This document shows, piece by piece, positions 7,809-13,519 of a stretch of DNA of 64,000 nt. The stretch comes from Chloroflexota bacterium (lineage in GTDB: Bacteria; Chloroflexota; Anaerolineae; UBA2200): positions 124,001 to 188,000 of the forward strand of contig JACIWW010000002.1 of the NCBI GenBank assembly GCA_014360905.1, given 5' to 3'. The stretch's first letter is position 1. The number at the start of each line of letters is the position of its first letter. The translations under genes were made by a program, and so were the position numbers. The notes beneath the pieces are model-generated. The model was not told the DNA's origin, searched no databases, and worked only from the letters and a program-made list of their open reading frames with translations.

Positions 7809-7827
7809 CAGTCCGAAGGTGCATGTC

Positions 7828-9180
7828 ATGACGAAAAATCAACGCTTAGTAGTCATTGGCGCAGTTGCCGCGGGCACCAGTGCTGCAGCCAAAGCCAAGC
7901 GGACCAATCCAGAGCTGGAGGTGCTCCTGCTTGAACGTGATTCATACATTTCGTACGGTGCTTGCGGGCTGCCCTATTTTATTTCAGGCCTTATTCCTAG
8001 CGCAGATGCACTGATCGCGCGTAGCCCCAATGAGTTTCAGAAACAAGGCGTCGAAGTGCGGATCCGGCATGAGGTGCTCGAGATCAATCCACAAGATATG
8101 AGCCTTCGTGTAATTGACCACGAGCACACAAAAGAATACCGATTGCCATACGACTATCTAGTTGTCGCCACAGGTGCTACGTCTTTCCGTCCCCCAATCC
8201 CAGGACTTGACCTCCACGGTGTATTTACTTTGCGCACCCTGCACGATGGGTTGGCTTTGCAAGAGACCCTTAGGGAAAAACGCCCCAAGCACGTTGTCAT
8301 CATCGGCGGAGGATATATCGGGCTGGAAATGGCCGAGGCTTTTCGTGCTCTTGATCTGCCCGTGACGATCGTCGAAATGGCACCGCAACTCATGGTGAAC
8401 TTGGATGAAGACATGAGCAGATTGGTGCTTGCCGAAGTGGAACGCCAAGGCGTACGTGTGCTGCTCAACGATGGCTTGGTACGCTGTGAAGGGGCAAATC
8501 ACGTGGAAAAAGTGGTCACGCAGCATAATGAAATCTCAGCAGATTTGGTATTGCTGGCTATTGGTGTGCGCCCTAATGTCCAATTGGCGGAACGGGCTGG
8601 CGTTAAATTGGGCGCAGGCAAGGCCATCGGTGTGGACAATTATATGCGTACCAATCTAGAAAGCATTTACGCCGCTGGAGATTGTGCGGAAACTACCCAT
8701 GTCGTAACAGGCGAAAAAGTCTACATCCCCTTAGGCACGACGGCGAATAAACAGGGCAGGGTAGCTGGGGCGAATGTAGCAGGCATGAGCTGTACCTTTG
8801 AAGGCGTGGCAGGTACAGCAGTGGCAAAAATCTTTGGCTTGGAGGTAGCGCGCACCGGGCTGACCGAAAGAGAGGCCACCGCGAAGGGGTTCAGCGTGCA
8901 CACAGCCACCATTCGCACCACAGACCGCGCTCGTTACTATCCTGGTGCAACCGAACTGTACGTGAAATTGATCATGGAACGCACTTCCAGACGCTTGCTA
9001 GGTACACAGTTAATCGGTGCGCAAGGGGCGGCCAAACGCATTGATGTGCTCGCCGCTGCGTTATATGCGAAGATGACCGTGGACGACCTAACTCGACTTG
9101 ATTACAGCTATGCACCGCCATACGCCTCAGTGTGGGATGCGACGCTGATTGCAGCCAATGTGGCCAGCAGGTGCAGTTAG
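7828..9180 (+). CDS. CoA-disulfide reductase / NADH oxidase family flavoprotein
   Basis: A 450-residue FAD- and NAD(P)-dependent disulfide reductase. An FAD-binding GxxxAGTSAA segment is at 8-20 and the second dinucleotide fold (VVIIGGGYIGLEMAEAF) begins near 152. The single redox cysteine C46 (SYGACGLPYF) matches the CoA-disulfide reductase / NADH oxidase / persulfide reductase group rather than the CxxxxC lipoamide group. Near the C-terminus, LDYSYAPPYASVWD is the standard dimer-interface motif. Likely roles are reduction of oxygen, CoA-disulfide or polysulfide. ATG 7828 has AAGGTG six bases before; GTG 7819 is an alternative. It belongs with the redox genes on both sides. Confidence 0.85.
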   Translation: MTKNQRLVVIGAVAAGTSAAAKAKRTNPELEVLLLERDSYISYGACGLPYFISGLIPSADALIARSPNEFQKQGVEVRIRHEVLEINPQDMSLRVIDHEHTKEYRLPYDYLVVATGATSFRPPIPGLDLHGVFTLRTLHDGLALQETLREKRPKHVVIIGGGYIGLEMAEAFRALDLPVTIVEMAPQLMVNLDEDMSRLVLAEVERQGVRVLLNDGLVRCEGANHVEKVVTQHNEISADLVLLAIGVRPNVQLAERAGVKLGAGKAIGVDNYMRTNLESIYAAGDCAETTHVVTGEKVYIPLGTTANKQGRVAGANVAGMSCTFEGVAGTAVAKIFGLEVARTGLTEREATAKGFSVHTATIRTTDRARYYPGATELYVKLIMERTSRRLLGTQLIGAQGAAKRIDVLAAALYAKMTVDDLTRLDYSYAPPYASVWDATLIAANVASRCS

Positions 9181-9263: not shown

Positions 9264-11012
9264 ATGATGGCAACTGTTAACAACATGACCTTCAAATTCT
9301 CTGGTGAAGCCGGCCAGGGAATAGAATCCACCGGGAGGGGGTTTGCCAAAGCACTTGTACGTGGTGGTCTGTATGTATTCGGCCTGCAGGACTATCACTC
9401 TCGCATCCGTGGCGGTCACAATTTTTATCAGATCCGCGTGGCAGACCACGAAATCTACTCCCATGATGAGCAAGTGCATGTTTTGCTAGCCTTTACGAAT
9501 GAAGCCATTGCCGAACACTTGCAGGAGATTGTCCCCGGTGGCGGCGTCATTTACGACCCAGAGCTACAAATCAACCCAGCAGCCCTGGCAGCAAGATTTG
9601 TGCAGGCTTTTCCCGTTCCCCTGAACCAAATCGCTATGAAAGAAGGGGGAAATAAAGTTATGAGCAACACAGCAGCAACTGGCGCTGCTGCTGGGTTAAG
9701 TGGTTTTGACCTGGAAGCAATTAACAGCGTGATTCGTGATAACTTTGGGAAAAAGGGCCCCACCGTGGTAGAAAGCAATCTTAAGGTGGCAGCCGCCGCC
9801 TACCATTTTGTCAGAGAGAAATATGGTAGCTCGTTGACATTCCGATTGCAAGCACAAAAAGCAAAACCTCGTATGCTGATCAGTGGTAATGAAGCGCTGG
9901 CTCTGGGAGCACTTATGGCGGGGTGCAAGTTTGTTGCGGGCTATCCCATGACACCGGGCAGCCCTATCCTAGAATGGTTTGCCACCCATAGCAAGGACTA
10001 TGGTATCGTTACCAAGCATGCCGAGGATGAGATTGCGGCTATCAATATGGTCATAGGGGCAGCACAGATGGGCATACGAGCCATGACAGCTACCTCCGGT
10101 GGCGGATTCTCCCTCATGGTCGAAGCCCTGGGGCTGGCGGGCATGACCGAAGTCCCCATCGTCGTAGTCAATGCACAGCGACCTGGGCCAGCAACGGGCC
10201 ACGCTACTCGCCATGAACAAGGCGACCTGCTTTTCATGCTCTATGCTGCGCAAGGCGAGTTTCCACGCATCATCCTCGCGCCAGGAACGGTCGAGCAATG
10301 TTTTGAGGCTGCCTACCGCGCCTTCAATTTAGCCGAAAAGTATCAATGTCCGGCTATAATCCTTTCAGATGCATTCTTAGCACACTCGCCACGCGCTTTG
10401 GAGCTGGACACACTGCAACTGGATGTTCCTATTGACCGTGGTGAACTTCTTAGTGACGAGGAATTGGATCAGTTAACCGAGCGCTATCAACGCCACGCCC
10501 TCACCCCATCAGGCATTTCACCTAGAGCTTTGCCCGGACATCCTAAAGCAATCTACTCGACGTCTAGCGACGAACACGATGAGTACGGGCAAATTTGCGA
10601 GGATGCTGCTATCCGCACTCAGCAGATGGACAAACGTATGCGCAAGTTGGAGACAGCACGAGCGGAAATGAAGGCACCACTGCACTATGGCCCATCTCAA
10701 GCCGAAATCACTTTTCTGACCTGGGGATCTACCTATGGCCCCCTGCGCTCAGCTGTGGATATCCTGAATGCACAAGGCACGCCAGCCAACATTGTACAAA
10801 TCATGGATATCTGGCCTCTGCCTGTTGAGAAAGTGAGCCAAGCCTTGCGAGGAGCCAAAAAACTGATCAGCGTAGAGCAAAACTACAGCGGACAGTTGGC
10901 TACGTTAGTGCGGGCCTATACCGGGATCAAGATAGATGGCTTGATTAACAAATACGATGGACGACCTATGTCGCCTGAATACATCCTGTCCCGCCTAAAG
11001 GAGGTGGCATAA
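9264..11012 (+). CDS. korA: 2-oxoacid:ferredoxin oxidoreductase, fused gamma-alpha subunit
   Basis: A 582-residue protein with a gamma domain first (about 7-190, FKFSGEAGQGIESTGRGF, GGHNFYQIRV) and an alpha domain after it (about 203-582, SGNEALALGALMAGCKFVAGYPMTPGS, then EDEIAAINMVIGAAQMGIRAMTATSGGGFSLM). This gamma-alpha fusion is the layout of two-gene 2-oxoglutarate/2-oxoacid ferredoxin oxidoreductases (KorAB), which oxidatively decarboxylate 2-oxoacids with CoA and reduce ferredoxin. The beta subunit follows three bases later. No delta (2x[4Fe-4S]) subunit is present. In the reverse direction the enzyme could fix CO2. Substrate choice (2-oxoglutarate, pyruvate or branched-chain oxoacid) cannot be read from the sequence. 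Confidence 0.9.
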   Translation: MMATVNNMTFKFSGEAGQGIESTGRGFAKALVRGGLYVFGLQDYHSRIRGGHNFYQIRVADHEIYSHDEQVHVLLAFTNEAIAEHLQEIVPGGGVIYDPELQINPAALAARFVQAFPVPLNQIAMKEGGNKVMSNTAATGAAAGLSGFDLEAINSVIRDNFGKKGPTVVESNLKVAAAAYHFVREKYGSSLTFRLQAQKAKPRMLISGNEALALGALMAGCKFVAGYPMTPGSPILEWFATHSKDYGIVTKHAEDEIAAINMVIGAAQMGIRAMTATSGGGFSLMVEALGLAGMTEVPIVVVNAQRPGPATGHATRHEQGDLLFMLYAAQGEFPRIILAPGTVEQCFEAAYRAFNLAEKYQCPAIILSDAFLAHSPRALELDTLQLDVPIDRGELLSDEELDQLTERYQRHALTPSGISPRALPGHPKAIYSTSSDEHDEYGQICEDAAIRTQQMDKRMRKLETARAEMKAPLHYGPSQAEITFLTWGSTYGPLRSAVDILNAQGTPANIVQIMDIWPLPVEKVSQALRGAKKLISVEQNYSGQLATLVRAYTGIKIDGLINKYDGRPMSPEYILSRLKEVA

Positions 11013-11015
11013 ACC

Positions 11016-11888
11016 ATGGTCAGCCTGAAAGATTATCTCAGTCCTATGCGTCCCACTTGGTGTACAGGATGCGGCAACTTTGGCATCTGGAATGCCCTGA
11101 AGAAGGCGCTAGTTGAATCAGGATTAGAGCCACATCAAGTGATCCTGATCAGTGGCATAGGTTGTGGCTCGAAACTCCCTGACTATACCACCGCCAATGG
11201 CTATTTGAGCCTCCACGGACGTACTTTGGCAGTTGCAACTGGCGCGCGTCTGGCCAATCACGGGCTCAAGGTTATCTGTACCCATGGCGATGGCGATGGC
11301 TATGGAGAGGGTGGCAATCATTTTATCAGTGCCGTCCGCCGTAACATCGGCATCGCAGACATTGTGCAGAACAATCGCGTGTATGGGCTGACCAAGGGAC
11401 AATACTCTCCAACAAGCCCGCATGGCTTTGTAAGCAAAACATCGCCCCAAGGGGCTATCGAACATCCTTTTAATCCGTTAGCTATCGCCCTGGCAGCGAA
11501 CGGCACTTTTATCTCCCGTGGTTGGTCGGGAGATGTGGAACACCTGGCCTGGCTTATCAAGGAGGCACTGCAGCATCGTGGCTACGCTTTGATTGATGTG
11601 TTACAACCCTGCGTAACCTTCAACCGCATGTACTCGTATGAGTGGTTGCGTCCACGAGTGTACAAAGTGCAGGATGATCCAAATTACGATTCCAGTGATA
11701 AGGGGGCAGCTTTCGCCAAGGCGCAGGAATGGGGCGAGCGCATCCCCATCGGAATTATCTACCGCACGGAAGACGTCCCAGCATATGAGGAACAGGTGCC
11801 AGCATTGACACTCGGACCGCTGGTAAAACAACCCATTCGTGTGAAGCCAATGGCAGAATACGAACTACTGAAGCAGGAATATCTGTGA
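11016..11888 (+). CDS. korB: 2-oxoacid:ferredoxin oxidoreductase, beta subunit
   Basis: The 290-residue TPP-binding partner of the preceding fused gamma-alpha subunit. The N-terminus RPTWCTGCGNFG carries two cluster cysteines, ISGIGCGSKLP a third, and LQPCVTFN the fourth, consistent with the proximal [4Fe-4S] cluster. The TPP/Mg motif is GDGDGYGEGGNHF followed by VQNNRVYGLTKGQ. The ribosome-binding site AAAGGAGGTGG overlaps the end of korA, so the two are translationally linked. The next gene, a glutaredoxin-PDZ protein, starts 13 bases after the stop and appears to be in the same operon. Confidence 0.92.
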   Translation: MVSLKDYLSPMRPTWCTGCGNFGIWNALKKALVESGLEPHQVILISGIGCGSKLPDYTTANGYLSLHGRTLAVATGARLANHGLKVICTHGDGDGYGEGGNHFISAVRRNIGIADIVQNNRVYGLTKGQYSPTSPHGFVSKTSPQGAIEHPFNPLAIALAANGTFISRGWSGDVEHLAWLIKEALQHRGYALIDVLQPCVTFNRMYSYEWLRPRVYKVQDDPNYDSSDKGAAFAKAQEWGERIPIGIIYRTEDVPAYEEQVPALTLGPLVKQPIRVKPMAEYELLKQEYL

Positions 11889-11901
11889 GGAGGGAATACG
11901 T

Positions 11902-12396
11902 ATGGAGGTAACTGTATATACTACCAAAACCTGACCTTACTGTTATCAAGTGAAGGGGTTCCTTTCGCAAAGAGGAATTCCGTTTAAGGAATACGATGTC
12001 GGTATCGACCGGGAAGCAGCCCTCCGTATGATCCGCCTTTCTGGTCAACAAGGCGTGCCTGTTACCACTATTGATGACGAGGTTATCGTAGGATTTGACC
12101 GACGCCGTTTAGAAGAAGCATTGGCCAAAGCGCAAAGCCGTAAGCCTCCACTGGGCGTCGCAGTAGCAGATGCTACGGGAACCACAGAGGGTGCATACGT
12201 AGGGCGAGTAACCCCCTACTCTCTAGCAGAGAAAGCGAGTTTACAAGTCGGGGATGTCATTATCGAGATAGGCGGGCAACCTGTGCGTAATGCAGTAGAT
12301 TTGGAGCGAATTTACAAGAAGCTGCACACGGGTTCGCGCGTCGCGTTGATTTTCCTTCGCCAAGGACGGCTTACCCAAACCGAGTTATCCCTTTAG
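11902..12396 (+). CDS. Glutaredoxin-PDZ fusion with in-frame TGA: probable selenoprotein
   Basis: The frame opens at ATG 11902, six bases after GAGGAGGGA, and reads VTVYTTKT, then TGA at 11932-11934, then PYCYQVKGFL. The TGA sits exactly where glutaredoxins have the first Cys of CPYC, so reading it as selenocysteine gives UPYC at residues 11-14 and an intact 164-residue protein. The glutaredoxin fold spans 1-80 (GVPVTTIDDEVIVGFD is the cis-Pro/GF segment). Residues 88-164 form a PDZ domain (GAYVGRVTPYSLAEKASLQVGDVIIEIGGQPV). A hairpin suited to a bacterial SECIS follows the TGA. A start at GTG 11950 would lack the active site and a ribosome site. Expected role: thiol/selenol redox chemistry, possibly targeted to a partner by the PDZ domain. 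A TGC-to-TGA mutation or error is the main alternative. Confidence 0.8.
11932..11968 (+). promoter_or_regulatory. SECIS-like hairpin after the in-frame TGA
   Basis: Counting the T of TGA as 1, bases 19-37 fold as GTG (19-21) with CGC (35-37, one G-T wobble), AAGG (22-25) with CCTT (30-33), a single bulged T at 34, and the tetraloop GGTT (26-29). The loop starts with G and contains GU at 27-28. Loop position and small size fit what is known of bacterial selenocysteine insertion elements, where SelB reads an apical-loop G close behind the UGA. In Escherichia coli fdhF the bulged U is on the other arm, so this is similar but not identical. Confidence 0.55.
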
Positions 12397-12982: not shown

Positions 12983-13519
12983 ATGGAAAAAGCAGCGTGT
13001 ATGGCAGCGCTCACCGCGCTCGAAAAAGCCATGGAAGCGGAGCGGCAAGGCAAAGCCTTCTATGAGGAAGCCGCAGAGCGCGTTCAGGATCCAATGGGCG
13101 CGGCGGTGTTCAAAACCTTGGCTGATGATGAGATCAATCATTTGCGCCTATTGCAAGCGGAATATGAAAAGATCAGCAGTGATGATGAATGGATGGAACT
13201 AGATGAAGCCAAGGTCTGCGAACCGCAGACACCGCTCAAGCTCTTCCCTGATAAAAGGGAAGCCTCACTGATCCTGCCGGACAATGCCACGGATCTAGAA
13301 GCATTGCAAATGGCGATGCAGTTTGAGGAAATGGGGTACAATCTGTACGCCAAAGCCGCAAATGAAACCGACGATCCGAAAGGGAAAGAGGTATTCCGCT
13401 TCCTGGCCAGACTCGAAAACGAGCATTTTGTCTTCTTGCAAAAGACGCACGACTATCTGACGAACAAGGGGGTTTGGTACTTCGACGAGCAAGAGTTCCC
13501 CATGTTCGACGGAGGATAA
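12983..13519 (+). CDS. Rubrerythrin-like ferritin-family protein (paralogue)
   Basis: A 178-residue protein with the same two-half plan as its upstream neighbour: AMEAERQGKAFYEEAAERV, TLADDEINHLRLLQAEYEK, then AMQFEEMGYNLYAKAANE and FLARLENEHFVFLQKTHDYL. The E + ExxH pairs predict a diiron centre in the cytosol. No CxxC rubredoxin domain is present, so electrons must come from a separate donor; the nearby flavoproteins are candidates by context only. A GGGAGG site precedes ATG 12983. The repeat of two such genes suggests tandem duplication. Confidence 0.83.
   Translation: MEKAACMAALTALEKAMEAERQGKAFYEEAAERVQDPMGAAVFKTLADDEINHLRLLQAEYEKISSDDEWMELDEAKVCEPQTPLKLFPDKREASLILPDNATDLEALQMAMQFEEMGYNLYAKAANETDDPKGKEVFRFLARLENEHFVFLQKTHDYLTNKGVWYFDEQEFPMFDGG

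Follow-up and report, generated by a model that had tools for sequence, protein, structure and literature searches.

The window analysed here, a 64-kb stretch of a Chloroflexota genome, carries a run of genes in the order CoA-disulfide-reductase-type flavoprotein, korA, korB, a glutaredoxin-PDZ (Grx-PDZ) gene, two rubrerythrin-like genes and DUF554. The features considered below, all on the forward strand, are:

7819..9180, +, FAD disulfide oxidoreductase of the CoA-disulfide-reductase type; upstream neighbour within this family of genomes
9264..11012, +, korA-like alpha(+gamma) subunit of a 2-oxoacid:ferredoxin oxidoreductase (POR, POR_N); conserved neighbour
11016..11888, +, korB-like beta subunit, ending 13 nt ahead of the Grx-PDZ start
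11887..11895, +, Shine-Dalgarno-like purine-rich sequence GAGGAGGGA, overlapping the korB TGA stop (11886-11888)
11902..12396, +, predicted gene for a Grx-PDZ selenoprotein of 164 aa (ATG to TAG), with selenocysteine (Sec) as codon 11
11908..12126, +, glutaredoxin domain, residues 3-75, with an invariant GVP cis-Pro motif (residues 51-53)
11932..11934, +, in-frame TGA, read as Sec11, the first residue of U-P-Y-C
11941..11943, +, TGT, Cys14, the second (resolving) thiol of UPYC; Cys in 30/30 homologues
11950..11968, +, bacterial SECIS-like hairpin GUGAAGGG-GUU-CCUUUCGC, 8 bp, -7.8 kcal/mol
12136..12393, +, DegP/HtrA-type PDZ domain, residues 79-164, with a conserved LG..V loop
12421..12924, +, rubrerythrin-like protein 1, a neighbour conserved downstream
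12983..13519, +, rubrerythrin-like protein 2, likewise conserved downstream

The initial annotation of this locus described an ATG at 11902, preceded by the good Shine-Dalgarno site GAGGAGGGA, that opens a frame into a glutaredoxin active site with TGA as codon 11 and no further stop in the next 153 codons. This is what we find: from the TGA at 11932-11934, 153 sense codons run up to the TAG at 12394-12396. Its remark that standard calling would start at GTG 11950 and drop the active site is likewise borne out by the mechanical ORF list. The name it proposed, a selenocysteine glutaredoxin, stands with respect to Sec, which is supported by TGA/Cys exchange, a SECIS element and the presence of the decoding machinery, but 'glutaredoxin' is incomplete in that the product is a Grx-PDZ fusion. 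That first reading did not take in the PDZ domain at the C-terminus, the SECIS hairpin or the conservation of the neighbouring genes. When the 64-kb window was scanned for further ORFs that a single TGA connects, all hits were ordinary gene ends or upstream extensions. We put the probability that 11902-12396 encodes a Sec-containing Grx-PDZ redox protein at about 0.93.

Active-site codon and Sec/Cys exchange

Homologues were sought in 199 relatives, which yielded 30 full-length Grx-PDZ loci; the named relatives are Chloroflexota, mainly Anaerolineae. The alternation between TGA and TGC/TGT that the initial annotation had suggested looking for is present: 16 of the 30 relatives have TGA at the active-site codon and the remaining 14 have TGC or TGT, so that the in-frame TGA is not a chance occurrence. 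No other stop was found at this codon among the full-length homologues that were read. Further members, some with Sec and some with Cys, came from Dehalococcoidia, Thermomicrobiales and Chloroflexia when named genomes were searched, and a draw of 400 genomes from the phylum gave a match in 40 of them (32 matches with exactly one TGA, eight with none), plus one additional second copy with TAG elsewhere in the gene. In all, more than 40 genomes from several classes have TGA at the homologous codon, and its position was read in more than 30 of them.

To follow the exchange, we placed 44 proteins on a tree with the Sec/Cys residue masked. The tree is unrooted, and the direction of change is not readable from it; the Sec/Cys label changes six times, with at least four changes forced by well-supported branches. 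The exchange extends to a single genus, g6, in which L041 has TGC and L045 has TGA. These two genes differ at 37 nucleotides: 10 lie in the 37-nt segment that starts at the UGA and stops at the end of the hairpin, and the remaining 27 lie in the other 470 nt (Fisher p = 1e-4). Between two Sec genes from this genus there are 65 differences, none of which falls in that segment. The L041/L045 pair is a recent Sec/Cys exchange. Repeated exchange with matching presence or absence of the SECIS element, within one phylum and even one genus, offers a natural system for studying Sec gain and loss.

Genome G478 holds two Grx-PDZ copies, L198 (G478:C3:255371-255826) and L197 (G478:C2); one encodes UPYC with an intact hairpin, and the other, a split or decaying gene, encodes CPYC and is interrupted between the domains by TAG at codon 80. 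In family f61, genus g167, the TGA form is found in G239, G247, G278, G292, G307, G382, G442 and G455. These genomes measure 1.7-2.1 Mb and are mostly single-contig, the motif is UPHC in the two members read (L192 and L193), and the organisms may be cultured organohalide-respiring bacteria.

SECIS hairpin and Sec machinery

The model of the bacterial SECIS element (bSECIS) prescribes a stem of 4-16 bp, a loop of 3-9 nt with G in the first two loop positions, a distance of 16-37 nt from the UGA and a minimum free energy (MFE) ≤ -7.5 (PMC13188914). The window hairpin, with its apical loop GUU at 11958-11960 and 23 nt from UGA to loop, falls within all four limits of this model (PMC13188914), although its -7.8 kcal/mol is only just inside the energy limit. 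It begins 15 nt past the UGA, and its first base coincides with the alternative start GTG 11950. The same hairpin was common to 16/16 Sec genes of our first set, where it occupies nucleotides 19-37 (numbered from the U of UGA), has a GUN loop and keeps the 23-nt spacing. RNAalifold returned it as the only consensus structure of the Sec genes; 97.7% of cells are paired, all slid registers were worse, and its covariation of 0.218 was reached by none of 500 shuffled alignments (0.120 ± 0.021). Pair 20-36 changes from C-G to U-A, and pair 26-30 from A-U to G-C, G-U and C-G. All of 26 Sec genes compared have the apical GU, with A-U, G-U or G-C at pair 23-33, and the thermomicrobial Sec genes have a 7-bp stem with loop AGUU and a U-A/G-C exchange at the third pair.

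In the same columns of the Cys genes, 57.1% of cells are paired, and a search for a consensus structure found none. The Sec genes show no variation at third codon positions 21, 27 and 33, where the Cys genes have entropies of 1.7-1.8 bits; the constraint is therefore on the RNA and not on the protein alone. One Cys gene, L032, keeps seven of the eight hairpin pairs and is missing the apical G, a pattern consistent with a SECIS relic. For the window gene itself, a local structure of -15.8 kcal/mol that would compete with the hairpin is predicted over 56 nt, and the hairpin of a sister species has one mismatch and -5.1 kcal/mol.

All four sel genes that the initial annotation had pointed to are present in the genome of the window (2.83 Mb, 96% complete). 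selA lies on the same contig, about 64 kb downstream; selB was matched at 347.6 bits, the tRNA-Sec (selC) has the anticodon TCA, and selD has an in-frame UGA of its own in the active-site loop (AAGUAAK). The selD locus (L156 109-1212, minus strand; C38:244-1179 in its own genome) has a short DUF3343-like ORF and a cysteine desulfurase next to it, and forms a selenium gene cluster. selA was found in 29 of 30 genomes with Grx-PDZ vs 37 of 40 without it from the same class; being near-universal, the machinery is necessary but not discriminating, and we set aside its association with Grx-PDZ as uninformative. In G005, G199, G200 and G206, tRNA-Sec matches scoring under about 55 bits may be Ser or Leu tRNAs, and in G168 and G211 no tRNA-Sec was found.

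Could the UGA be a true stop, a sequencing error or a pseudogene lesion, with the product a 148-aa protein starting at GTG 11950? Standard ORF calling does yield that product, but we consider this exceedingly improbable: the TGA recurs across genomes and classes and the protein is intact to either side of it, a covarying hairpin specific to Sec genes overlaps the GTG, the shortened protein would be deprived of strand 1 together with the active site, and the good Shine-Dalgarno site belongs to ATG 11902. Reading of the UGA as Cys or Trp by recoding or suppression would agree with Cys being the alternative residue at this position. However, the neighbouring korB stops at TGA and the ordinary code is in use, the genome encodes a tRNA-Sec(UCA) along with selA, selB and selD, and the hairpin fits the bacterial SECIS model and vanishes where the codon is TGC or TGT; such decoding is thus very unlikely. 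Under the favoured reading, Sec insertion, SelB and tRNA-Sec would decode UGA 11932 as directed by the hairpin at 11950-11968.

Domains, relatives and proposed catalysis

The predicted protein matches Pfam Glutaredoxin PF00462 over residues 3-62 (3.1e-16) and PDZ_2 PF13180 over residues 83-164 (3.7e-10). Its Grx fold, N-terminal UxxC and cis-Pro motif mark the first domain as a glutaredoxin of the PF00462/YruB type, and a predicted PDZ fold with an intact carboxylate-binding loop, in which LG at residues 84-85 is invariant in 30 homologues, marks the second as HtrA-type. An AlphaFold2 model run on the family alignment had a pLDDT of 90.6 and a low pTM of 0.54, which indicates two well-defined domains whose relative orientation is uncertain. 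Residues 1-75 of the model superimpose on cGrx1 (7c10_A) with Z 14.1 and an rmsd of 0.9 Å over 74 residues at 46% identity, and residues 79-164 match the PDZ domains of HtrA/DegQ with Z 13-15.

Structure 7c10 is that of cGrx1, known as the natural selenoprotein glutaredoxin of Clostridium (Alkaliphilus) oremlandii. This closest characterised relative (PDB 7c10, 7c12) likewise has Sec first in its UxxC motif. It is a stand-alone chain of 84 residues in the PDB entries, whereas the Chloroflexota glutaredoxin is fused to a PDZ domain and its gene lies beside korAB and rubrerythrins. According to work cited in PMC13188914, cGrx1 contains Sec naturally and has MsrA as a partner. By analogy with cGrx1, the Sec selenolate of the U-P-Y-C centre would attack a disulfide, be it a protein disulfide, a mixed disulfide or a sulfenate, after which Cys14 would resolve the selenenylsulfide. 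The PDZ domain joined C-terminally to this Grx-fold redox head would presumably lead it to specific protein partners.

Two existing NCBI family models, YruB (TIGR02196, a hypothetical equivalog) and Uxx-star (NF041212), were matched over the Grx domain by 30/30 members, but both are without a PDZ domain. For TIGR02196 the window protein scored 83.4 bits, below the cut-off of 88.55, and is therefore not filed as YruB itself; one relative reached 88.9. Scores for NF041212 (cut-off 66) are borderline, with 63.1 for the window protein and 60-76 for its relatives, some of which pass (68.5, 76.5). The Trx7/PDZ family NF041199 likewise unites a thioredoxin-fold part and a PDZ part in a predicted selenoprotein of bacteria, but it combines Thioredoxin_7 with CxxU where the Chloroflexota protein combines Grx with UxxC; the latter scored 30.5 bits against a cut-off of 300, with the match confined to the PDZ part. 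The first PDZ domain of HtrA/DegP/DegQ is like residues 79-164 in fold and sequence. Those proteins have a protease domain, however, whereas Grx-PDZ has none and its PDZ domain follows a redox domain.

Sec-containing glutaredoxins are already known; the combination of Sec-Grx and PDZ appears to be new. Grx-PDZ is absent from the selenoprotein families tabulated in the reviews PMC9312934 and PMC13188914, in which Trx7/PDZ with CxxU is the only PDZ selenoprotein, and a literature search for Sec-Grx in Anaerolineae, or together with korAB or rubrerythrin, found no papers. This widespread domain combination, which plain ORF calling truncates at the GTG, enlarges the bacterial selenoproteome.

Two full-length archaeal matches, L076 and L124, were rejected as Grx-PDZ members on account of a different fusion. 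In L074, L076, L077 and L124, from Methanoculleus and other Methanomicrobiales, a glutaredoxin of the same type is fused to a thioredoxin-reductase-like flavoprotein, a hint that glutaredoxins of this family may receive electrons from a flavoprotein.

Gene neighbourhood and possible role

Where the flanking sequence was long enough for a check, most Anaerolineae families have korAB directly upstream of Grx-PDZ and rubrerythrin-like genes downstream; family f7 has one intervening gene in this order. The arrangement is different or absent in G012, G048, G013, G136, Dehalococcoidia and Thermomicrobia. From this gene order, a role in repairing or defending thiols around KorAB, an oxygen-sensitive enzyme, and the rubrerythrins can be proposed tentatively, and the neighbourhood makes protection of ferredoxin-linked anaerobic metabolism a testable role. 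A fuller and still more speculative version would have a dedicated, PDZ-guided Chloroflexota selenoredoxin keep the 2-oxoacid:ferredoxin oxidoreductase/rubrerythrin module working, with electrons possibly coming from reduced ferredoxin via a ferredoxin:thioredoxin reductase (FTR) encoded in the same genome. If this were true, Grx-PDZ would be a targeted selenoenzyme for the repair of metabolic enzymes.

It has been suggested that some UXX-star proteins bind metals or metalloids (PMC13188914), and the proximity of Grx-PDZ to model NF041212 could mean that its Sec serves such binding, or another function, and not thiol-disulfide exchange. The invariance of the second Cys of UxxC and of the GVP (cis-Pro) motif, a complete Grx fold nearly identical to that of cGrx1 and the redox genes next door argue against this, and we regard it as unlikely. 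As to the partner of the PDZ domain, docking of the selenoredoxin on the C-terminus of KorB is a doubtful proposal. The KorB tails encoded in Grx-PDZ operons are indeed hydrophobic (-EYL, -EYV, -EFL, -AYM), but KorB orthologues from genomes without Grx-PDZ have the same type of tail (-EFV, -EFI, -ELI, -EFM). Because the hydrophobic tail is equally common without Grx-PDZ, it is not an adaptation to the PDZ domain; having failed this control, the KorB C-terminus is unsupported as a PDZ ligand. Thiol-disulfide exchange by a Sec-containing Grx-PDZ protein is the reading that we prefer.

Other redox genes were seen near Grx-PDZ or elsewhere in these genomes. A small glutaredoxin and a ferredoxin:thioredoxin reductase are among the neighbours in G012, and this pair recurs in the genome of the window on a different contig (C12:74872-75407). 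Second FTR catalytic subunits with one in-frame TGA occur at G103:C4:132419-132682 and G172:C67:15978-16238 and are probably Sec-FTR; a Sec-FTR-type family is given as CxU in PMC13188914. In G054 (L143), PDO-like (thioredoxin-fold) and OsmC-like genes precede the Sec Grx-PDZ gene instead of korAB, 1.4 to 0.3 kb upstream. The dehalococcoidal Cys Grx-PDZ genes L060 and L061 are preceded by a small ORF (-367..-20 and -263..-18 respectively) with the motif C.HYW...C..CG.T.
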